NCBI RefSeq assembly: GCF_002744735.1
Contig: NZ_KZ319341.1
Coordinates: 545,848 to 609,847 of the forward strand
Length of the DNA stretch: 64,000 nt
From: Marinobacter guineae
Lineage (GTDB): Bacteria; Pseudomonadota; Gammaproteobacteria; Pseudomonadales; Oleiphilaceae
Direction: 5' to 3'
A program made the translations under genes and the position numbers. The notes under the pieces were generated by a model. It ran no database searches. It saw nothing but the letters and a program-made list of their open reading frames with translations, and had not been told where the DNA came from. Positions 18,304 through 28,878 of the stretch are shown in pieces; positions within the stretch are counted from its first letter, which is position 1; each line of letters starts with the position of its first letter.

Positions 18304-19395
18304 ATGGGATTTAACTGCGGCATCGTCGGCCTTCCCAACGTCGGCAAATCCACCCTGTTCAACGCGCTCACCAAGTCCGGCATCGGTGCGGAAAACTTCC
18401 CTTTCTGCACCATCGAGCCAAACGCCGGTGTTGTCGCCATGCCAGACCCACGCCTGAACAAACTGGCCGAGATCGTAAAGCCCGAGCGCGTCGTGCCCAC
18501 CACCATGGAATTCGTCGACATCGCCGGCCTCGTAGCGGGCGCCTCAAAAGGTGAAGGCCTGGGTAACCAGTTCCTGGCCAACATCCGCCAGACCGACGCC
18601 ATCGCACACGTGGTACGCTGCTTTGAAGACGGCAACGTTATTCATGTGGCCAACAAGGTCGATCCCGCCTCCGACATTGAAGTAATCAACACCGAACTGG
18701 CGCTGGCCGATCTGGAAACGGTGGAAAAGGCCATTAAACGCGTACAGCGCGTAGCCAAGAGCGGTGACAAGGAAGCCAAAGCCCAGCTTGAGATGTTCGA
18801 GAAGCTTATGCCGGTGCTGAACGAAGGCCAACCGGTACGCAGCATGAACCTCGACAAGGACCAGATGGCCCTCATCCGTGAACTATGCCTGCTCACCGTC
18901 AAGCCCACCATGTACATCGCCAACGTCAACGAAGACGGCTTCGAGAACAACCCGCACCTGGATACCGTGCGCAAGATCGCCGAATCCGAGAACGCCGTCG
19001 TGGTGCCGATCTGCAACAAGCTGGAAGCAGAGATCTCCGAACTGGAAGACGACGAAAAAGCCATGTTCCTGGATGAGATGGGCATGGAAGAGCCGGGCCT
19101 CGACCGCGTGATTCGCGCCGGCTACAGCCTCCTCGGCCTGCAGACCTACTTTACCGCCGGGGTAAAGGAAGTACGCGCCTGGACCGTTAAAATCGGTGCG
19201 ACAGCGCCCCAGGCAGCTGCTGTAATCCACACTGATTTCGAGCGCGGCTTTATCAGGGCAGAAGTGGTGAGCTACGACGATTTCGTGAAGTACAACGGCG
19301 AAGCCGGTGCCAAGGATGCCGGTAAATGGCGCCTGGAAGGCAAGGAGTACATCGTTAAAGACGGCGACGTAATCCACTTCCGCTTCAACGTGTAA
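18304..19395 (+). CDS. ychF: Redox-regulated ATPase YchF
   Basis: OBG-family P-loop protein (363 aa) that hydrolyses ATP rather than GTP and is linked to ribosomes and oxidative stress. Motifs are [12 protein letters not shown] (Walker A), [22 protein letters not shown] (switch II region), and a C-terminal TGS domain ending VIHFRFNV. Length and order match E. coli YchF. It is the last gene before tRNA-Met. Confidence 0.95.
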
Positions 19396-19422
19396 CTTTT
19401 AAGAAAAAATGGGCTTCAAGCC

Positions 19423-19451
19423 TTGACACACGGGGCCCAAATACTGAAAAT
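19423..19451 (+). promoter_or_regulatory. tRNA-Met promoter
   Basis: An exact -35 TTGACA at 19423-19428, a 17-bp spacer, and a -10 candidate GAAAAT at 19446-19451, followed by a GC-rich stretch as usual for stable RNA genes. Confidence 0.6.
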
Positions 19452-19486
19452 ACGCGCCTCGTTTGGGGCGATGCCCAAAGCGAAAT

Positions 19487-19563
19487 GGCAAGGTAGCTCA
19501 GTTGGTTAGAGCACAGCACTCATAATGCTGGGGTCGGCGGTTCGACTCCGCCCCTTGCTACCA
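19487..19563 (+). tRNA. tRNA-Met (CAT), elongator
   Basis: A 77-base tRNA with encoded CCA, anticodon loop CTCATAA with anticodon CAT, and T arm GGTTCGACTCC. It resembles the elongator tRNA-Met of E. coli rather than the initiator. The first acceptor pair is G-U instead of G-C. It marks the left edge of the accessory island. Confidence 0.93.
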
Positions 19564-19571
19564 AGATTCAG

Positions 19572-19605
19572 AGGGTTACGACGCAAGTCGTGACCCTTTT
19601 TTTTT
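19572..19605 (+). terminator. Terminator after tRNA-Met
   Basis: An 11-bp stem (AGGGTTACGAC / GTCGTGACCCT, one G-U pair) with a GCAA tetraloop and nine T residues. Confidence 0.92.
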
Positions 19606-19622
19606 GGTTGACTACAAATTGT

Positions 19623-20354
19623 CTACATCGAGGACGGGGAGTGCGAGTCAACGTCGACAATCTCCGTATTAATAGCATCTTCTATTTTGCAGCGCTGGAC
19701 CGCCAGCATCAGAGCGCGCTTAACTTCGGTGCCCCGCCATTTTTTCGAAATGTATAAGGAAACAGGAATGACGCCGACTTCCCAGGAGGAAAGTACTTCC
19801 TGCTCGCGTTCCAGAAAATGCTTCGCCATACCTGATGGCATTACAGCAACATCGATTCGCTGAAGCTTGAGCATATCCACTAACTGCGACCAATCTGATA
19901 CTTCTTCGACTCTAACCGCAGACTCTGGAATAAACTGTTTGCCTACAAAACCCAAAACGATCCCATATCGTAGCCCGGGCGTTTCAGCAAAAGCCCCATC
20001 AAGCTGCAACGATCGCAAGCTTACGATCGAAAATCCAGCGTTGTACAAGGGGCCAGCGAAATCGGCTTTCTCGTCCCTTTGTGATGTTCTAGCTATTGGT
20101 AGCATGATATCGAGCCTGCCCAGATCAAGCTCAACCAGGCCACGCTTCAAAGAGACAGAGCTAGCTTCGATCTCTAACCCGGAGTGGTCGAATACGCAGT
20201 TATAAGGTTTAGATAAATCGCCAGTGAGCTGCCCTTCCTCAACGCCGATCCATCCGACAGTGTCATCAATGACACCAACAGACAGACGTTCTGAAGAGTG
20301 TGCGTAAGTCAAAGACCAAATAAGCAGCGCACAAGTTAAAATGACGAATCTCAC
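19623..20354 (-). CDS. Periplasmic substrate-binding-like protein (SBP_bac_3 type)
   Basis: A 243-aa protein with an N-terminal signal peptide (MRFVILTCALLIWSLTYAHS) and the fold pattern of small extracellular solute-binding proteins: RLSVGVIDD at the start, a LGRLDIMLPIARTSQRDEKADFAGPLY segment, and a second lobe with LKLQRIDVAVMPSGMAKHFL. No permease or ATPase is nearby, so it may be an orphan or sensor-type binding protein rather than part of a transporter. It sits just inside the island edge. The ligand is unknown. Confidence 0.7.
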   Translation of the reverse strand: MRFVILTCALLIWSLTYAHSSERLSVGVIDDTVGWIGVEEGQLTGDLSKPYNCVFDHSGLEIEASSVSLKRGLVELDLGRLDIMLPIARTSQRDEKADFAGPLYNAGFSIVSLRSLQLDGAFAETPGLRYGIVLGFVGKQFIPESAVRVEEVSDWSQLVDMLKLQRIDVAVMPSGMAKHFLEREQEVLSSWEVGVIPVSLYISKKWRGTEVKRALMLAVQRCKIEDAINTEIVDVDSHSPSSM

Positions 20355-20521
20355 CCTAAAGACCTCACAATACCGGCATTAACAAATTTTTCAGACTGAT
20401 TATCCCGGCTTCCAAACAAGAACTGAAAGCATGCCACGCACGCACAAAGTGCAAGATATATCACATCTGCAATCACTAGGAAGAATTACTCAATCGATTA
20501 CAAAGGATATTACGAATGCCT

Positions 20522-20765
20522 CTACAGTGTGTTTATGCGAACAACTGGCGAAAGCCGCACTGCCGATTCTAAGTGATCAGGCGAAAGATGTGCGTATTTC
20601 ATGGTCATGGTGATGTTGCCATGTCCGAGAATACGCTGAAGCGTGAGTATGTCCCCGCCATTCATAATGTAGTGACTGGCAAAGGTGTGCCGGAGGATGT
20701 GCGTCAGCTGTTGTGGCGTCGAGAATCCACACCGTTTATAAGCCGCCCGGAATGCCGACCGGCAG
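20522..20765 (-). pseudogene. Phage integrase (tyrosine recombinase), C-terminal fragment
   Basis: Only the C-terminal catalytic part of a phage integrase is present. It shows the HILRHTFASHYIMNGGD motif (Arg and His), LQRILGHGNITMTMKYAHLSP with the catalytic tyrosine near the end, and a stop at 20522. About 80 residues read as integrase, from near FRAAYKRCGFS. Upstream the same frame runs antisense-like through another gene, so the N-terminal half is missing. Similar integrases occur in P2-like and filamentous phages. The fragment would be inactive. Confidence 0.75.
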
Positions 20766-21135
20766 GGACCGAATAAACGCCCTGGTAGTAGTTCAGGTAG
20801 GCATCGAGGTTGGCGCGGATCTTCAAGGCCCTGGGGTTGTCGATGAATCGGACGACGTCGCCACCAACCGGCGGTTGGTCGATCCGGGAAGACACGAAGC
20901 GCCAGCCGGCGGCACCGTTGGTGTGGTTGCCACCAACCGCCAACCACTGACGGCCTGACTTGCTGACCGCAACGGTTCCCGGTCTGACCATTCGAGCGGG
21001 GCCCAGGCGGTCAGAGGACGCGACAAACTCAGAGCCATTGAAAAAGTAGAAGGTGCAGGAAAGTGTGCGGTCTTTGTCGTGAGCGACACGGACGATGGTC
21101 TGGGCTTTTTGACCGACTCGGTTCAGGGGCTTCAT
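20704..21135 (-). CDS. Unknown phage-remnant protein, probably truncated
   Basis: I do not recognise this 143-aa reading frame. The part before about residue 125 (for example YFFNGSEFVASSDRLGP, NPRALKIRANLDAYLNYYQ) looks like real protein. The last 20 residues (after YSVPAG) cross the junction with the integrase fragment and are probably not native. The ATG at 21135 is 2 bases after the stop of the upstream 71-aa gene, with GGAGG in that gene's end as ribosome site, so they were one operon. Position after a phage-type switch suggests an early phage gene. Confidence 0.45.
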   Translation of the reverse strand: MKPLNRVGQKAQTIVRVAHDKDRTLSCTFYFFNGSEFVASSDRLGPARMVRPGTVAVSKSGRQWLAVGGNHTNGAAGWRFVSSRIDQPPVGGDVVRFIDNPRALKIRANLDAYLNYYQGVYSVPAGRHSGRLINGVDSRRHNS

Positions 21136-21137
21136 GG

Positions 21138-21353
21138 TCATACCTCCTCTTCTTCCATCTGTTCCAGGAGACGGGGAATGTTGACCATGCGGTGACGACC
21201 GATCTTGTGGGTCGGGATGTAGGCGCGTTTGATCCAGCCCTCTACTACGCCCTGGTCTACTCGGACCCAGTCGGCGAACTCGCGCCAGTCCATCAGAACG
21301 GGCCAGTTCAGCTGTTTAATGCGTTCGGCTAGTTGTTCGTCTATCATAGTCAT
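21138..21353 (-). CDS. Small HTH/excisionase-like phage regulator
   Basis: A 71-aa protein with a predicted helix-turn-helix: VLMDWREFADWVRVD followed by GVVEGWIKRAYIPTHKIGRHRMVNI, the pattern of excisionase or MerR-like DNA-binding proteins. It is transcribed away from the repressor-like gene at 21462, with paired operators between them. This is the standard arrangement of a phage genetic switch. The start may be the first ATG (21353) or the second (21347). Confidence 0.6.
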   Translation of the reverse strand: MTMIDEQLAERIKQLNWPVLMDWREFADWVRVDQGVVEGWIKRAYIPTHKIGRHRMVNIPRLLEQMEEEEV

Positions 21354-21391
21354 TGGTCAAAAACGTCCAAAAACGGCTAATTCCAGATTCA

Positions 21392-21440
21392 CTTAAGCCA
21401 TATCAGCTTAGCTTTTCTGTCTTAGCCATATTGGCTTAAG
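21392..21440. promoter_or_regulatory. Paired operators in a divergent phage switch
   Basis: Two related 20-bp dyads in the gap between the divergent HTH genes: CTTAAGCCATATCAGCTTAG at 21392-21411 and CTTAGCCATATTGGCTTAAG at 21421-21440. Each contains TAAGC/GCTTA-type half-sites, and their centres are 29 bp apart, about three helical turns. They are likely bound by one or both flanking proteins. Confidence 0.6.
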
Positions 21441-21461
21441 TCATTTTTATACCTTTTTCTC

Positions 21462-21734
21462 ATGATCAAAGAACGGGTTATAACAATCATCAAACATTCA
21501 GGGATGAAGAACCCGGAGCTGGAAGCGCAAACGGGAATAGGTCGCTATACTTGGCAGAACATAAGGAACAAGCCGGAAAGAGAGTTAAAAACGGAAGAGA
21601 TAGAGGCAGTAGTGAAACTCTATCCTCACTACGCTTTATGGATTGCTTCAGGAGAAATAGCGCCTGAAATCGGCCAGACCAGCCCTGAATATGACGAAGT
21701 CAACTCAAAGTTAGACAGTCGCGCCGAGGGATAG
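21462..21734 (+). CDS. Phage repressor-like HTH protein
   Basis: A 90-aa protein whose first half has the pattern of a lambda-type helix-turn-helix (MIKERVITIIKHSGMKNPELEAQTGI, then RYTWQNIRNK) and whose second half resembles the short C-terminal part of small phage repressors. It is divergent from the 71-aa excisionase-like gene, with two operator dyads between. It most likely represses that operon. Downstream genes up to 22420 lie on the same strand. Confidence 0.6.
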   Translation: MIKERVITIIKHSGMKNPELEAQTGIGRYTWQNIRNKPERELKTEEIEAVVKLYPHYALWIASGEIAPEIGQTSPEYDEVNSKLDSRAEG

Positions 21735-21808
21735 CAGTAACGAATAGAGTCATGGAAAGATGGTTCCGTAAACGCGGCGATAGCAAACTGGATGATTGAG
21801 GCAGAAAG

Positions 21809-22132
21809 ATGGCACATAGACAAAACAGACCGAAGCCTTCTACCGCAAGAAATAGAACCCCGCAAAGGAATACTGCGCGAATGAAAGGCCAAGTGCTTGC
21901 AGCGCTGAAGAATTCGAATTGGGATTACCGGACTGTCGCAGGAATTGCCAAAGAATTAAAAATCCCAAAATACGTCGTTGTTGAGGTAATAAGGGAAAAC
22001 AGAGATAAAGTATTGATTTCGGCGATGAAAAGCCCAAAAGGGGAAGAGCTTTATGCGCTGAAAAACAAAAAAAGCAAGCTTCAAGACTATTGGTCTAGCT
22101 TTAGAAGCATGACAGCACAAAAATATGGATGA
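21809..22132 (+). CDS. Small basic winged-helix-like protein of unknown function
   Basis: A 107-aa protein with a basic, disordered N-terminus (HRQNRPKPSTARNRTPQRN) and a likely winged-helix core (DYRTVAGIAKELKIPKYVVVEVI, then a short wing with LYAL). A GAGG-type ribosome site precedes the ATG at 21809. An internal ATG at 21881 would give the core alone. It is 3 bp from the next gene and AT-rich like the rest of the island. No family is recognised. Confidence 0.5.
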   Translation: MAHRQNRPKPSTARNRTPQRNTARMKGQVLAALKNSNWDYRTVAGIAKELKIPKYVVVEVIRENRDKVLISAMKSPKGEELYALKNKKSKLQDYWSSFRSMTAQKYG

Positions 22133-22135
22133 ATC

Positions 22136-22420
22136 ATGACACCTGGAGAGGTCTTAGCTTTCGGAGTTATTGGTGGTGCGCTTCCTGAATTTTATGCTAT
22201 TTACAGAATAAGACACTATAAAAAGGAAAGCCGACCACTTTGGCTATCATCAGGGTTTTATTGGATAACCACAATATTTATGGTGGCATTGGGGGGAGGG
22301 ACCGCTTTCCTTTATCACCATATTGGCGTAAAAATAAATCCAATGATGGCGATACACTTGGGTCTGGCTACGCCAGTTCTAATACAGACCGCCATCAAAG
22401 AAAAGCCGAAGATAGATTAA
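22136..22420 (+). CDS. Small membrane protein of unknown function
   Basis: A 94-aa protein with three hydrophobic stretches: near 5-22, near 37-60 (LSSGFYWITTIFMVALGGGTAF) and near 69-86. It starts 3 bp after the winged-helix gene, so the two are probably co-translated, and it ends 26 bp from the convergent ATPase gene. I recognise no family. Association with the defence-like module is only by position. Confidence 0.5.
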   Translation: MTPGEVLAFGVIGGALPEFYAIYRIRHYKKESRPLWLSSGFYWITTIFMVALGGGTAFLYHHIGVKINPMMAIHLGLATPVLIQTAIKEKPKID

Positions 22421-22446
22421 TTTAAACTCCATCTATTAAAGGGGCG

Positions 22447-24198
22447 CTAGGCAATATTTATCATATCTAACGTGGACTGAATCAACTGTTCATGATCTTC
22501 ACCACATTCATTTAAAAAAGATCGTTCAGAGTCGCCATCTCCAATCTGAATTATCTTTCCTTTCCCTGAAAAGTATATCTCATTCACCAATTCAATATTA
22601 TTTGTAGTTTTATCATCACCTTTTGAATGCGATAACGATTCTGAAACCGAAAAAATCATTTGCGTATCGCTAGGGGCATGATCATTAAGAAATAAAAAAA
22701 TTGTCTTTCTATTTTCTTCTTCAATATCTTCCTTCATAACTGCGTCAAGAATAAATGGGAACCGATGAATACCCTGCGTCTTTGATATCAACTTATTTAA
22801 AGCAAAATGATATGCAATTACTGTTTTGTGAAGCTCGACACCTTGCCGTGGGAAGGAGTTTATCTTATAAAGTTGCTTGTATCTCGACTCTTCAAAATTT
22901 GCAAGATTCAAGTCTGAAAGACAATCCTTGAAATAACTCCAAAATAGCTGCTCCTTTGCGCTCCTAACACTATCAATATCCTTATCAACACCAAAACCTT
23001 CTATTTCTCGAATGATCTCCTTTAGTTCCACAGCCTTGTCAGATAATGAGTTATTTATATTTCCTATAAGCTTCACATTTGACTTATGATCTAACCAAGT
23101 GTCAAAACTAACATTTGAACTGGAAGACTGATAATTCATAACCACTGAGTACTTGTCTTCTAGAATGTCACTAATTTTGTCTATCTTATTATTTACAGAA
23201 TTTATTTTTGACTGCAAATCAACAATTTCGGCTTTCACCGAGACAATCTCACTCTCCGTATCATTTATATCCTGCTGATGGACATATACGTCCTCAAGAG
23301 AGTTTGGCAATAATTGAGAGCAAACCGGACAAGAATCTATTTCAGGTCGTTGATGTAAAATGTTACGCCTAACCCTATTAAGAACAACCTTCCTATTGGT
23401 AGCCAAACTTTTCTTATTACAAAGATGAACATGATGAGTTTCCTCTTTTACAAGACTTTCTCTAAGCTGAGAGTACTCACTGAGGTACTTAGATGCCTCA
23501 CCTCTAAATTCCTCATCAAGCAACTGAGAAAGCTGTAACTTTTCATCATTATTCTTCATTTTTTCTAGAAATTCTATTTCTCGAACAAGCTCTGATTTAG
23601 TACGCAGAAGCTTATGCAACTCAATCCTGTCGATATCAGAAGTTATTCCCAAATAGTAGTCAAGATAATCAAACTTGAAGTTCTTATAGTAATTCAGACC
23701 ACTAAACGATTCCCTTAAATAAACCCACCCAACAGATTGAGAAACATAATAAGGGAGAAGCATAACTTCCAAAGGAGCTGGCTTCAAATCTTCTTTACTT
23801 TCGAGAGCTAACTTGAACCCAAATATTGAAGACAATTTCTCTTTAAGCTTTATATGCTCGTTGGAATTATCTGAACCAATACCGTCAAACCGAAAGGTAC
23901 TTTTCCCAGGCTCAAGTATAAAATAAGACTGCCCGTCACGTATTAAAGTAATATCACTCACCGCATTGTCATTTTTCTTCTCAAGATCAAGTCGAAATAC
24001 AAGATCCTCGTCTAAAATTTCCTGCAGCTTATCATTGCTGTCATTTATACCAAAGCAATAAATTATTGATTGGATTAATGTACTTTTTCCAGACGTATTC
24101 TTCCCTTTGATGATATTGATTCCATCAGAAAAATCCGTATAGAAACACTTTTTATTTTTTTCAGAAAATACAAACAGACTTTTAAATTTGACCAACAT
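22447..24198 (-). CDS. Rad50/SMC-like ATPase with CPVC hook (LmuB-like)
   Basis: A 583-aa ABC/SMC-type ATPase. The N-terminal half-domain has Walker A GKNTSGKST at about 32-40. Two coiled-coil arms (about 190-290 and 300-400) flank a CPVC motif at 290-293 that could bind zinc with a partner hook. The C-terminal half has PFILDAV near 481-487 in the Walker B position, with aspartate 485 and no following glutamate. It starts by a TAATG overlap with the nuclease gene upstream. SMC-like subunits of this size paired with Cap4-type nucleases define Lamassu-family systems, and ABC-3C systems are an alternative. The gene is strongly AT-rich compared with its chromosome, a sign of transfer. Confidence 0.75.
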   Translation of the reverse strand: MLVKFKSLFVFSEKNKKCFYTDFSDGINIIKGKNTSGKSTLIQSIIYCFGINDSNDKLQEILDEDLVFRLDLEKKNDNAVSDITLIRDGQSYFILEPGKSTFRFDGIGSDNSNEHIKLKEKLSSIFGFKLALESKEDLKPAPLEVMLLPYYVSQSVGWVYLRESFSGLNYYKNFKFDYLDYYLGITSDIDRIELHKLLRTKSELVREIEFLEKMKNNDEKLQLSQLLDEEFRGEASKYLSEYSQLRESLVKEETHHVHLCNKKSLATNRKVVLNRVRRNILHQRPEIDSCPVCSQLLPNSLEDVYVHQQDINDTESEIVSVKAEIVDLQSKINSVNNKIDKISDILEDKYSVVMNYQSSSSNVSFDTWLDHKSNVKLIGNINNSLSDKAVELKEIIREIEGFGVDKDIDSVRSAKEQLFWSYFKDCLSDLNLANFEESRYKQLYKINSFPRQGVELHKTVIAYHFALNKLISKTQGIHRFPFILDAVMKEDIEEENRKTIFLFLNDHAPSDTQMIFSVSESLSHSKGDDKTTNNIELVNEIYFSGKGKIIQIGDGDSERSFLNECGEDHEQLIQSTLDMINIA

Positions 24199-25283
24199 TA
24201 TCTTGCATTCCTAGTTTCTACATAAGCAGCAACTATTGCAAAAGACACCAACGTTTCATTTAGCTGCGTTTGATGCATTCTTGCAAATCTTTCACTAAGC
24301 TTTGTTATACATTCCACGTCTGAAAATGACACTTCGTCAATATCTCTATTATCATCCACGAAACGGAAGATCTTCTGAAATTCAACCTGCTTCAGATCTT
24401 TAAAATAATCAAAACAATCGTTGAGATATTCCGCATACCTACTACTCTTACTAACCGGTATCCGAAGGGCTTTAGATAAATCCTGAGCATTCTCACGCCA
24501 CAACCTAAATGCTTTTGCTTTACTGCAAATTATATCTATAGCTTTAAATATCTCTTTACTATATACCCTCTTACTTACATCAAGAAGTTTGCTTTTATTT
24601 CCTTGATTGTAAACAGTTTCAACTTCCCTGAATAGCTTTAACAAGAGATCTACTGCAGCCGCAGAATCAGTCACTTTATCTTTAAAAAGATCTGAAAGCA
24701 TACCGGCTAGCTGATGTCGTTGGGATCTATCAGTATTTCCAACATCTATATATTTAAAATAAAGATTATCTAGCTGCTGATCGTCGAATGAAAAGTCACC
24801 CAACCTCTTTAATATATTGCTCTGTATATTGCCATGCAAATTGCTATAGCAAACAAAAACGTTGCTTTCTCTTATTATTTCACTGAACTTTTCACCCTTG
24901 CCTTTTTTACCACAACCTAATCTTATGCTCTTATTTGTCAAAAATATCAATTCATGTGAATAGCCGCTAACCTTAGAAATTTGGTCAGCTTCTAAAGCAC
25001 TCCCAACTTTCGTCATTTTCGCTATAATTTCAGCTAAATTTTTCCCAACAGCCCATTCAGACGAAGACTTTTTAGCTTGGTAAGCTTTTATTTTATCAAT
25101 TTCATTTGAGTCGTTAAGTTCGGCAAATATTACATCATCATGGTGCTCTATGCAGATGAAGAATTCGCTACCAACCAATATGTCGTAGTTCTCTAACACA
25201 AGAAATATGGCGCTGTTTCTTTGGAACGAAAATCCAGTTAAAGCTTCAACCCCCGCGTTAGTGTCATTTCTATTGTGAGACAT
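24198..25283 (-). CDS. DUF4297/Cap4-like nuclease (LmuA-like)
   Basis: A 361-aa protein whose N-terminus matches the dsDNA-nuclease domain of CD-NTase-associated Cap4 and LmuA. It shows GFSFQRNSAIFLVLE near 17-31, acidic residues in the IEHHDDV segment, then AYQAKK. This places an aspartate about 20 residues before a QxK, as in the PD-(D/E)xK variant of this family. The C-terminal two-thirds is helical and unrecognised, probably the partner-binding region. The ATG at 25283 follows AGG at 5 bases. A GTG at 25289 would add two residues. It is the first gene of the pair, and its stop overlaps the ATPase start by one base. Confidence 0.7.
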   Translation of the reverse strand: MSHNRNDTNAGVEALTGFSFQRNSAIFLVLENYDILVGSEFFICIEHHDDVIFAELNDSNEIDKIKAYQAKKSSSEWAVGKNLAEIIAKMTKVGSALEADQISKVSGYSHELIFLTNKSIRLGCGKKGKGEKFSEIIRESNVFVCYSNLHGNIQSNILKRLGDFSFDDQQLDNLYFKYIDVGNTDRSQRHQLAGMLSDLFKDKVTDSAAAVDLLLKLFREVETVYNQGNKSKLLDVSKRVYSKEIFKAIDIICSKAKAFRLWRENAQDLSKALRIPVSKSSRYAEYLNDCFDYFKDLKQVEFQKIFRFVDDNRDIDEVSFSDVECITKLSERFARMHQTQLNETLVSFAIVAAYVETRNAR

Positions 25284-25289
25284 AATCAC

Positions 25290-25986
25290 CTATAATTTTT
25301 CTGAATTCGACACAGTCAAGTCAAAAATAGCAAAAATTCTCAAATCAACTCTTGGCTAGAAAAACTGGACCAGTTCGTGTTTAAAAATCAAAAGGTTCCG
25401 CGCGTTTTCCTGAAGATCCAATGGAGAATGAGCATAGCCAAGCCTACCGAAGCTTTCCACTTATTCACTTAACTTCTAGTACTAGCTGGTAATCCCATAC
25501 CTCAAAAAAAGCAGTCTCGAACTCGCCTGCGATGATGAAGTAGTTTAAGCAGTTACCAGCCTAGCGCTCGCGAAGCCAGGATTAATGAGACTAGGATAAA
25601 ATTTTCTTTACAAGCTTCAAGGACAAAGGTTTGGATAACGCTGTAGTCTGTGGAGGTTTTTTCGCCCTCTAGATAGAGTTCAACCTGATGGATTCATTAA
25701 TCAACATGAGAGAGTCCGTTGGTCTCGCCGGGGAGGCTGCCAGGAAATTGGTACCTCCTACACGCTTAGGTTAGCCAGGCAACAGCCTGATCTCGGTTGC
25801 CCCCTTGCCTACCGCCATGTACCTTAGTGCCCGTTAACGACTGGACAGAATACGCAAGTAGCTGTTTTTGAACGCCTATGCACTTTAATGAACGCCTCAC
25901 ACAGGTCTCATAAAACGGTGTTCTTCAATACCCATAGAGTAAGCACGACGCGCCTTATTCCATACGAGTATTTCTCACCAGCACAG
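25290..25986. other. Non-coding, decayed island segment
   Basis: About 700 bases with no reading frame of note on either strand and no clear RNA gene. It contains one copy (25793-25810) of an 18-bp sequence repeated after the antitoxin gene. The promoter of the nuclease gene must lie in its first part, but I cannot pick a convincing -35/-10 pair. It may be the remains of deleted mobile DNA. Confidence 0.5.
25793..25810 (+). repeat. Direct repeat, left copy, flanking higBA
   Basis: TCGGTTGCCCCCTTGCCT, identical to 26641-26658. The bases just before each copy are also similar (GCCTGATC versus GCTTGATG). The pair brackets the toxin-antitoxin genes. Confidence 0.8.
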
Positions 25987-26004
25987 GTTATCATTTATGA
26001 TAAC
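25987..26004. promoter_or_regulatory. Palindromic operator before higBA
   Basis: GTTATCATTTATGATAAC, a perfect 8+8 dyad with a 2-base centre, about 25 bases before the toxin start. Antitoxins of this family repress their own operon by binding such palindromes. Binding by this HigA is an inference. Confidence 0.6.
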
Positions 26005-26027
26005 TATCCAAGGAAATGGGAGATGGA

Positions 26028-26348
26028 ATGGCCTGGGAAATTGAGCTTTACGGAAAGGTAGACGAAGACTTGGCAGCAATGCCACCCAAGATCCAGGCCC
26101 GAATGATTCGCCTGATGGAACTGATGGAGAAGCACGGCGCCAATCTTGGGGAGCCACACACAAAGCCACTGGGTGATGAGCTGTTCGAGATCCGGGCCAA
26201 GGCGAAAGAAGGGATCGGCAGAGGTATCTTCTGCTACATGCAGGGCAAACGAATCGTGGTGCTGCACGTATTTGTAAAAAAAGATCAGAAGACACCGAAG
26301 AAAGACCTGGAGCTCGCGAAAGAGCGGTTAAAGGAGGTCAGGAAATGA
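26028..26348 (+). CDS. HigB/Gp49-like (RelE superfamily) toxin
   Basis: A 106-aa protein of the phage-derived Gp49-like (DUF891) toxin family, ribosome-dependent mRNA nucleases. Family features are LMELMEKHGANLGEPHTKPLGDELFEIRAK and the closing VVLHVFVKKDQKTPKKDLELAKER. The ATG at 26028 has a GGGAGA ribosome site. The stop overlaps the antitoxin start by 4 bp. Toxin-first order fits HigBA. Confidence 0.85.
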   Translation: MAWEIELYGKVDEDLAAMPPKIQARMIRLMELMEKHGANLGEPHTKPLGDELFEIRAKAKEGIGRGIFCYMQGKRIVVLHVFVKKDQKTPKKDLELAKERLKEVRK

Positions 26349-26638
26349 AAAGCTTTAACGACTTTAAGAAGAAGGCACTGGAAAACCCCGAGGTCCGGAA
26401 GGAGTACGACGCCCTCCAGGACGAGTTCAACCTGATTGATCAGTTGGTCACCATGAGGACTTCGGCCGGTCTTACCCAGGAGGAAGTTGCCAATAAGCTG
26501 GGCACCAATAAAAGCAACATCTCCAGGCTTGAGCATGGCAAAGGCAATCCGAGCTGGAGCACGCTTAACAAATATGCTGCTGCCTGTGGATTTAGGGTGA
26601 AGCTGGAGGCCGTAGAAGACAACCGTGCATCGGCTTGA
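26345..26638 (+). CDS. HigA-type XRE antitoxin
   Basis: A 97-aa antitoxin with a Cro/cI-type helix-turn-helix (LTQEEVANKLGTNKSNISRLEHGKGNP at about 43-69) preceded by a helical N-terminal arm. It neutralises the upstream toxin and probably represses the operon through the palindrome at 25987. A 4-bp overlap links it to the toxin gene. The direct repeat begins right after its stop. Confidence 0.87.
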   Translation: MKSFNDFKKKALENPEVRKEYDALQDEFNLIDQLVTMRTSAGLTQEEVANKLGTNKSNISRLEHGKGNPSWSTLNKYAAACGFRVKLEAVEDNRASA

Positions 26639-26964
26639 TGTCGGTTGCCCCCTTGCCTCCCGATATAGACACTCTTCGCGGCTTCAACTCTTACACAACC
26701 TTTGACAATTCCAGAACGATTATTCAGATAAGATGGGAACTTCCCGCAGAATGCGTTTCAAGGCTGTATCGCATCATGAACTCCCGTCACACATTCAGTG
26801 TTTTTCTGGCAGCGGTCTTCGTGCCTGCTGCGCTTGCATTTGCTGCCGCAAGCCTGAAAGCTGCCGCTCTGTCGATATTGGTTTTTTGGGCCTGCCTCGG
26901 GATCTTTTTCTATCCATCGATAAACGATTACCTTAAAGACCGGAACAGACGAGGGCGAGACTGA
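26638..26964 (+). CDS. Small membrane protein, uncertain
   Basis: A 108-aa frame whose ATG overlaps the antitoxin stop (TGATG). The N-terminal part is encoded within the repeated sequence, and the C-terminal half has two hydrophobic helices (near 53-72 and 76-93), ending in a basic tail. No family is recognised. It could be a real gene whose start was rebuilt by the recombination that placed the toxin-antitoxin pair, or an internal start (MNSRHTFSVF, 26776) could be used. A terminator follows. Confidence 0.4.
   Translation: MSVAPLPPDIDTLRGFNSYTTFDNSRTIIQIRWELPAECVSRLYRIMNSRHTFSVFLAAVFVPAALAFAAASLKAAALSILVFWACLGIFFYPSINDYLKDRNRRGRD
26641..26658 (+). repeat. Direct repeat, right copy, flanking higBA
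   Basis: Identical to 25793-25810. It starts 2 bases after the antitoxin stop codon. Confidence 0.8.
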
Positions 26965-26994
26965 TATCGGCTATCCTTTAACTGTTCCAACCAG

Positions 26995-27024
26995 AAAGCC
27001 CTCCTCGAAAACGTCGGGCTTTTT
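26995..27024 (+). terminator. Rho-independent terminator at island right edge
   Basis: Stem AAAGCCC / GGGCTTT with a 14-base loop, and T residues running on from the stem. It ends transcription from the toxin-antitoxin side before the PACE gene. Confidence 0.65.
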
Positions 27025-27095
27025 CCGTTTTTGGGGACGACCCCACCCTTTGCGGGAACTGAACGCGGGACGACCCGCTTGTGTACTTCCCTGCT

Positions 27096-27599
27096 ATGCG
27101 AACAACGAAAGACAGAATCCGGCAAGCCGTTTCCTTTGAACTCATCGGTATATTCCTGTCCGTCCCCCTCGCTGCGCTTGCCTTCAGTTTTGACCTGGGC
27201 AAAACCGGCATCCTGGGTGTCGTGGGCGCAACCCTGGCAACCCTCTGGAATTATGTGTTCAACCTGCTCTTCGATCACGGCCTTAAAAAGCTGAACGGCT
27301 CCACCCACAAATCCCTGACAATCCGCTTCCTCCATGCCATTAGTTTTGAGCTGGGGTTGATGATGGCCTTTCTGCCAATCATCGCCTGGTGGATGGACAT
27401 CAGTTTGCTGGAAGCCCTGATCGTGGATCTTGCGTTTATCGCCTTCTACCTGGTGTATGCGTTCGTTTTCACCTGGTGCTACGACACGGTGTTTCCGGAC
27501 ACCGATGCCACGAATCAGCACAATCCACCACAGCCAAACTCTGTGGCATACTCACTGACCGAAACTCACAAAGAACAAATCACCAGCAAGGACCGTTGA
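27096..27599 (+). CDS. PACE-family multidrug efflux transporter
   Basis: Proton-coupled efflux protein of the AceI/PACE family, known for export of chlorhexidine and short diamines. The 167-aa protein has four membrane helices in two similar halves, each with the family signature (RIRQAVSFELIGIFLSVPL, and RFLHAISFELGLMMAFLPI). The conserved glutamate in the first FELIG is present. The preferred start is the ATG at 27096 (MRTTKDRIRQ). A start at 27081 is possible. It is one base before metY, so the two are likely co-transcribed. Substrate here is unknown. Confidence 0.88.
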   Translation: MRTTKDRIRQAVSFELIGIFLSVPLAALAFSFDLGKTGILGVVGATLATLWNYVFNLLFDHGLKKLNGSTHKSLTIRFLHAISFELGLMMAFLPIIAWWMDISLLEALIVDLAFIAFYLVYAFVFTWCYDTVFPDTDATNQHNPPQPNSVAYSLTETHKEQITSKDR

Positions 27600-27600
27600 C

Positions 27601-28878
27601 ATGAAACCGGAAACCCTCGCCCTGCACGCAGGCTTCAAAAGCGACCCTACTACCCGGGCCGCCACCACGCCGATCTACCAGACCACGTCCTATACCTTTG
27701 ACGACACCCAGCACGGTGCCGATCTTTTTGATCTGAAGGTCCAGGGCAACATCTACACCCGCATCATGAATCCAACCAACGCGGTTCTGGAAGAGCGGAT
27801 GGCCGAACTGGAAGGGGGCGTTGGCGCCCTGGCTGTGGCCTCTGGCATGGCCGCCATCACCTATGCCCTGCAGACTATCTGCAAGGTGGGCAACAACATC
27901 GTCAGCACCAGCCAGCTGTATGGCGGCACCTATAACCTGTTTGCCCATTCTCTGCCAAACCAGGGCATTGACTGCCGGATGGTGCGTCATGATGATTTCG
28001 ATGCCGTGGAAAAGGCCATTGATGACAACACCCGCGCCCTGTTCTGCGAGTCCATCGGCAACCCGGCGGGCAACGTGGTGGATATCCAGCGTTGGGCCGA
28101 GATTGCCCACAAGCATGGCATTCCGCTGATGGTGGACAACACCGTCGCGACGCCGTTCCTGTGTCGCCCCTTTGAGCATGGCGCCGATATTGTCATTCAC
28201 TCCCTCACCAAGTACATCGGCGGCCATGGCACCACGGTGGCTGGCGTTGTGGTGGATTCCGGCAAATTCGACTGGAAAGCCAGCGCTGCCAAATTCCCGA
28301 TGCTGAATGAGCCGGATCCCTCCTACCACGGTGTGGTCTATACCGACGCCCTCGGCCCTGCTGCCTTTATCGGTCGCTGCCGTGTGGTGCCACTGCGTAA
28401 CACCGGTGCCGCCCTGGCCCCGTTCAACGCCTTCCTGATCATGCAGGGCCTGGAAACCCTCGCCCTGCGCATGGAGCGCCATTGCGAGAACGCGGAGAAA
28501 GTGGCCAACTTCCTGCAGAACCACCCGTCAGTGGAGTGGGTGAACTACGCGACTCTTGCCAACAGCCCGTACAAGGCCACCTGCGACAAGATCTGTGGCG
28601 GCAAGGCCTCCGGGATTCTGAGCTTTGGCATCAAGGGTGGCCGGGAAGCGGGCGCCAGATTCATCGATGCGCTGGACCTGATCCTGCGCCTGGTGAACAT
28701 TGGTGACGCCAAATCCCTGGCCTGCCATCCGGCCACCACAACCCACAGGCAGCTGAACCCGGACGAACTGAAAAGTGCCGGCGTGAGCGAGGATCTGGTG
28801 CGGCTGTCGATCGGCATTGAACACGTCGACGACATCATCGCCGACATCACTCAGGCCCTGGACAAAGCCAAGGCTTGA
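27601..28878 (+). CDS. metY: O-acetylhomoserine sulfhydrylase
   Basis: PLP enzyme that makes homocysteine from O-acetylhomoserine and sulfide in methionine synthesis. The 425-aa length is typical of MetY and longer than MetB/MetC. Motifs include YTRIMNPTNAVLEERMAELEGG, the PLP-lysine segment HSLTKYIGGHGTTVAG near 200-215, and a C-terminal LVRLSIGIEHVDDIIADI. A ribosome site AAGGA precedes the ATG. No SAM riboswitch is visible upstream, where the PACE gene ends one base before. Confidence 0.92.
   Translation: MKPETLALHAGFKSDPTTRAATTPIYQTTSYTFDDTQHGADLFDLKVQGNIYTRIMNPTNAVLEERMAELEGGVGALAVASGMAAITYALQTICKVGNNIVSTSQLYGGTYNLFAHSLPNQGIDCRMVRHDDFDAVEKAIDDNTRALFCESIGNPAGNVVDIQRWAEIAHKHGIPLMVDNTVATPFLCRPFEHGADIVIHSLTKYIGGHGTTVAGVVVDSGKFDWKASAAKFPMLNEPDPSYHGVVYTDALGPAAFIGRCRVVPLRNTGAALAPFNAFLIMQGLETLALRMERHCENAEKVANFLQNHPSVEWVNYATLANSPYKATCDKICGGKASGILSFGIKGGREAGARFIDALDLILRLVNIGDAKSLACHPATTTHRQLNPDELKSAGVSEDLVRLSIGIEHVDDIIADITQALDKAKA

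Follow-up and report, generated by a model that had tools for sequence, protein, structure and literature searches.

Within the 64,000 nt window (the whole stretch of DNA analysed here, to which all positions refer), two adjacent genes, lmuA and lmuB, very probably make up a type I (two-gene) Lamassu system, for which an anti-phage or anti-plasmid activity would follow by analogy with described members. The kind of system is already known, and this is a new instance of it. The pair comprises:

lmuA: 24198–25283, minus strand, 361 aa counted from the ATG; predicted effector with an N-terminal Cap4/DUF4297 PD-(D/E)xK dsDNA endonuclease domain (~residues 10–175) and a helical C-terminal domain
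lmuB: 22447–24198, minus strand, 583 aa; SMC/Rad50-like ATPase with Walker A, coiled coils, a CPVC motif, and a Walker B motif without the catalytic Glu

Sequence features and family identity of LmuA and LmuB

Both ORFs are intact. The TAA stop codon of lmuA and the ATG start codon of lmuB overlap by 1 bp at base 24198 (TAATG), and an alternative in-frame GTG two codons upstream of the lmuA start would give a protein of 363 aa. LmuA carries an acidic motif (H47-D49-D50) followed by Q69-x-K71. LmuB has a Walker A motif (GKNTSGKS, residues 32–39), coiled coils, a zinc-hook-like CPVC motif (residues 290–293) and the Walker B sequence FILDA, in which D485 is followed by A486 and not by Glu. A first-pass annotation had already pointed to the TAATG fusion, the DD and QxK residues and the LmuB motifs, down to the missing Walker B glutamate, and all of these were confirmed in the sequence. 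It had also described the genes as more AT-rich than the chromosome, and their GC content is indeed ~34–37%, against 53–61% across most of the surrounding chromosome. Scans of the locus for promoters and terminators scored no better than shuffles.

Adjoining lmuB is a plus-strand ORF (22136–22420) of 94 aa, apparently encoding a membrane protein, with only a weak match to DUF1129. Neither this ORF nor the other small flanking ORF (21809–22132) matched a PADLOC model.

Searches of PADLOC-DB matched both proteins to Lamassu models from end to end. LmuB matched PDLC00250 over residues 3–581 of 583 (780.8 bits, E = 2.1e-235) and LmuA matched PDLC00244 over residues 1–359 (453 bits, E = 2.8e-136). 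LmuA also matched the Pfam family Cap4_nuclease (PF14130), at 26.3 bits barely over the cut-off of 26.2, and a Pfam scan of this protein gave no SAVED match; for LmuB, Pfam offered SMC_N alone, below cut-off. When PDB sequences were searched with phmmer and hmmsearch, LmuA found no meaningful match, and the matches to LmuB were confined to the P-loop of Rad50, AriA and SMC proteins. A genome search with the Pfam family MC3 (PF20131), which represents one LmuC-type middle component, found none, the control genomes being equally silent.

Predicted folds and homologous loci

Structures of the single proteins were predicted by AlphaFold2 from alignments of 21 (LmuA) and 22 (LmuB) homologues, leaving out the plasmid-derived row, with mean pLDDT values of 86.5 and 80.9, respectively. 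Although searched separately, both models found the same PDB entry first, 9ux7 ('CryoEM Structure of LmuAB-DNA complex', released 2026-03-25). LmuA aligned to chain 9ux7_C with a VIA Z of 18.8 (285 residues, 4.0 Å, covering residues 19–359) and LmuB to chain 9ux7_A with a VIA Z of 26.6 over 496 residues. The rmsd of the latter alignment is 28.6 Å, a large value of the sort expected when coiled-coil angles differ. The type II Lamassu entries 9hqu, 9hqx, 9nyg and 9uxh rank below 9ux7 for both models; the best of their LmuA rows align over the nuclease part only (Z ~12.5–13, residues 11–254), and Cap4 entries align to the LmuA model over residues 8–256 only. The link to 9ux7 is one of fold only, as the searches of PDB sequences gave no such match. 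Since identity over the structural alignments is low (13% for LmuA and 16% for LmuB), the details of trigger and assembly may not be those of 9ux7. Profile searches and structure prediction had been suggested in the first-pass annotation as checks on its assignment of the pair to Lamassu LmuA-LmuB, with a Cap4-type nuclease and a Rad50-like ATPase, and both lines of evidence bear it out.

The homologue set comprised 23 loci from Bacillota, Bacteroidota, proteobacterial and related groups, a plasmid and three viral contigs. An alignment query of two sequences found 19 bacterial genome loci and the three viral contigs, and close-relative scans of bacterial genomes and viral contigs with single-protein queries found nothing. 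A search of the class with an LmuB profile returned mostly short P-loop matches, which were not counted as Lamassu. All 23 LmuB homologues matched PDLC00250 and all 22 LmuA homologues matched PDLC00244. The nearest copy found was that of Thalassolituus maritimus (66% identity in LmuB and 68% in LmuA), the others showing 31–44%. Upstream sequence was readable at 21 of the 23 loci, and in every one of these an LmuA of 357–373 aa directly precedes LmuB with no gene between them. The intervals lie between −115 and +8 bp, the strongly negative ones hinging on the choice of start codon. Five more distant LmuBs (21–26% identity) likewise have an ORF of 360–388 aa directly upstream, with Q-x-K at the same place. 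No third gene recurs in the flanks of the homologous loci, where no family was seen at more than two loci.

Residues E46, H47, D50, Q69 and K71 of LmuA are invariant in the 22 homologues, as are G37, K38, S39, C290, P291, C293 and D485 of LmuB wherever the homologues cover them. Directly after the Walker B aspartate, all 24 members of the clade carry Ala or Ser, and six more distant two-gene LmuBs carry Ala, Ser or Thr. A review describes a glutamate-to-glutamine change in the Walker B motif of LmuB in general, and states that ATP hydrolysis by Vibrio LmuB may be slow or absent (PMC10586767). As it is common to every homologue examined, absence of the Walker B glutamate is, on the aligned sequences, a normal property of the family and nothing unusual.

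In one genome of the same order (G722:C11, L054/L064), an LmuB of the clade close to the end of a contig is split between two overlapping frames, and is possibly a frameshifted or decayed copy.

An insert adjacent to tRNA-Met

There is clear evidence that lmuAB was acquired horizontally, on an insert at a tRNA-Met gene. The relevant features are:

tRNA-Met: 19487–19563
integrated element with lmuAB: 19573–26994, ~7.4 kb, directly 3′ of tRNA-Met
tyrosine integrase, element-borne and truncated (C-terminal remnant): 20522–20947, minus strand; Pfam Phage_integrase 48.9 bits, PHROG_1
HigB/HigA-type pair within the insert: 26016–26638; a Gp49/DUF891 toxin-like gene, then an HTH antitoxin-like gene

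One congener (G772) has an empty site, in which the homologue of 19225–19572 is directly joined to the homologue of 26995–27514; as these segments adjoin in G772, ~7.4 kb has been inserted in the window, the boundaries being placed to within about 10 bp. A search for an attR repeat at the distal end of the insert turned up no clear candidate. The integrase remnant covers only positions 112–170 of the 172 in the Phage_integrase profile, and the insert also carries a phage-type regulator and an excisionase-like ORF, the latter assigned by eye. The phage-derived island proposed in the first-pass annotation is real, but small. A search of 14 congener genomes gave no match to LmuB.

The interval between ychF and an O-acetylhomoserine sulfhydrylase-like gene (19395–27601) is 8.2 kb here and varies from ~1.1 to ~39 kb across congeners, a spread that suggests an integration hot spot by tRNA-Met. 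The segment 25663–25814 has no long ORF and shares 70–86% identity with portions of the HTH antitoxin region (26410–26483 and 26627–26662), apparently being a decayed second copy. An ORF of 109 aa (26635–26964) has no match in Pfam, PHROG or PADLOC. Relative to the neighbouring chlorhexidine-efflux-type gene, its counterpart in G772 (~71% identical) is found on the opposite side, a change in local gene order.

Alternative readings, mechanism and relation to known systems

Type II Lamassu systems have three genes, including one for a small middle protein (PMC10586767, PMC12409362), and the missing LmuC might be taken to mean that a three-component ABC-3C or type II system has lost or displaced this gene, leaving a degraded pair. 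This is very improbable, as no gene separates LmuA from LmuB at any of the 21 readable homologous loci and no flanking gene recurs, the top fold match is an LmuAB complex without C, and both genes are intact with conserved active-site residues. The two-gene form without LmuC is, according to PMC12409362, which cites Doron et al. 2018, the original form (type I); of the Lamassu systems that PADLOC detected in 2021, about 10.2% had LmuC and were named type II (PADLOC paper, PMC8565338). A DNA-repair or restriction-type module of SbcC/Rad50-like ATPase and nuclease, with no role in defence, would be in keeping with the match of the LmuB heads to Rad50/SbcC structures (VIA Z 19–20) and with SMC_N, albeit under cut-off, being all that Pfam offers. 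The chance of this is extremely small: both partners match Lamassu entries best, none of the homologues examined has the glutamate that efficient ATP hydrolysis requires, and the genes are sporadic in occurrence, lying here on a mobile insert, recurring in distant phyla and unmatched in the searched set of 14 congeners.

It is somewhat more conceivable, though still unlikely, that the PDLC00244/PDLC00250 clade is a separate Lamassu subtype with a different ATP switch, and so a type I branch with a mechanism of its own. Its ABC-signature region reads FPxQGVELHK, against SGSxGPRA in other two-gene LmuBs, and the segment following Walker B reads D-A/S-x-x-K-E-D, against DSPxQQ; these motifs are near uniform in the 24 members, unlike the six more distant two-gene LmuBs. 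However, PADLOC already files both proteins as LmuA and LmuB, gene order, length, hook and Walker A are unchanged, the fold fits the solved LmuAB complex, and a difference in sequence does not by itself establish a different mechanism. The first-pass annotation was right that the nuclease-first order fits Lamassu and that there is no LmuC. Its suggestion that the pair could be a minimal or new subtype is not supported, because the two-gene form is the original type I, PADLOC models for it exist and the glutamate is absent in every homologue.

For a type I Lamassu, the published work on these systems (PMC10586767, PMC12409362) supplies a mechanism, and conservation of the active-site residues together with the fold matches makes it the likeliest one for this pair as well. 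LmuB would dimerise via its CPVC hook and bind ATP, hold LmuA inactive in a complex of the kind described for Lamassu, and sense DNA ends or abnormal DNA structures arising from replicating phage or plasmid. On engaging a DNA target it would release LmuA, which would oligomerise and cut double-stranded DNA indiscriminately, and the infected cell would die or stall without the phage spreading. By analogy, therefore, DNA sensing by LmuB, release of LmuA and DNA cutting leading to abortive infection is the most likely mode of action. Release of LmuA and formation of a homo-tetramer are reported from three studies in a review addendum (PMC12409362), and also appear in the titles of type II PDB entries. 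With the Walker B glutamate lost, the switch may be set by ATP binding and not by rapid hydrolysis. The pair gives its genus, where type I Lamassu is rare, a compact and intact example of the type; as a small two-gene member it would be useful for testing Lamassu function in the absence of both LmuC and the Walker B glutamate.

Among known systems, the Rad50/SbcC repair ATPases differ in having a catalytic glutamate after the Walker B aspartate, which LmuB lacks. CBASS Cap4 (6vm6, 6wam) shares the N-terminal dsDNA endonuclease domain (VIA Z ~13), but carries a SAVED/CARF sensor at its C terminus and is partnered by a CD-NTase, whereas the C-terminal half of LmuA is helical and aligns to the LmuA of 9ux7, and the partner is LmuB. 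Type II Lamassu, ABC-3C and DdmABC systems (9hqx, 9nyg, 9uxh) have similar folds (Z 23–24 for LmuB and ~12.5–13 for the nuclease part of LmuA), but possess a third, small middle protein (LmuC/MC) that is absent here, their LmuB is longer (~650 aa) and the C-terminal part of LmuA fits less well. From type I Lamassu no defining difference separates the pair: it has the same two genes in the same order, abutting and with no LmuC, and full-length matches to PDLC00244 and PDLC00250, and the classification of Lamassu is left unchanged by it.
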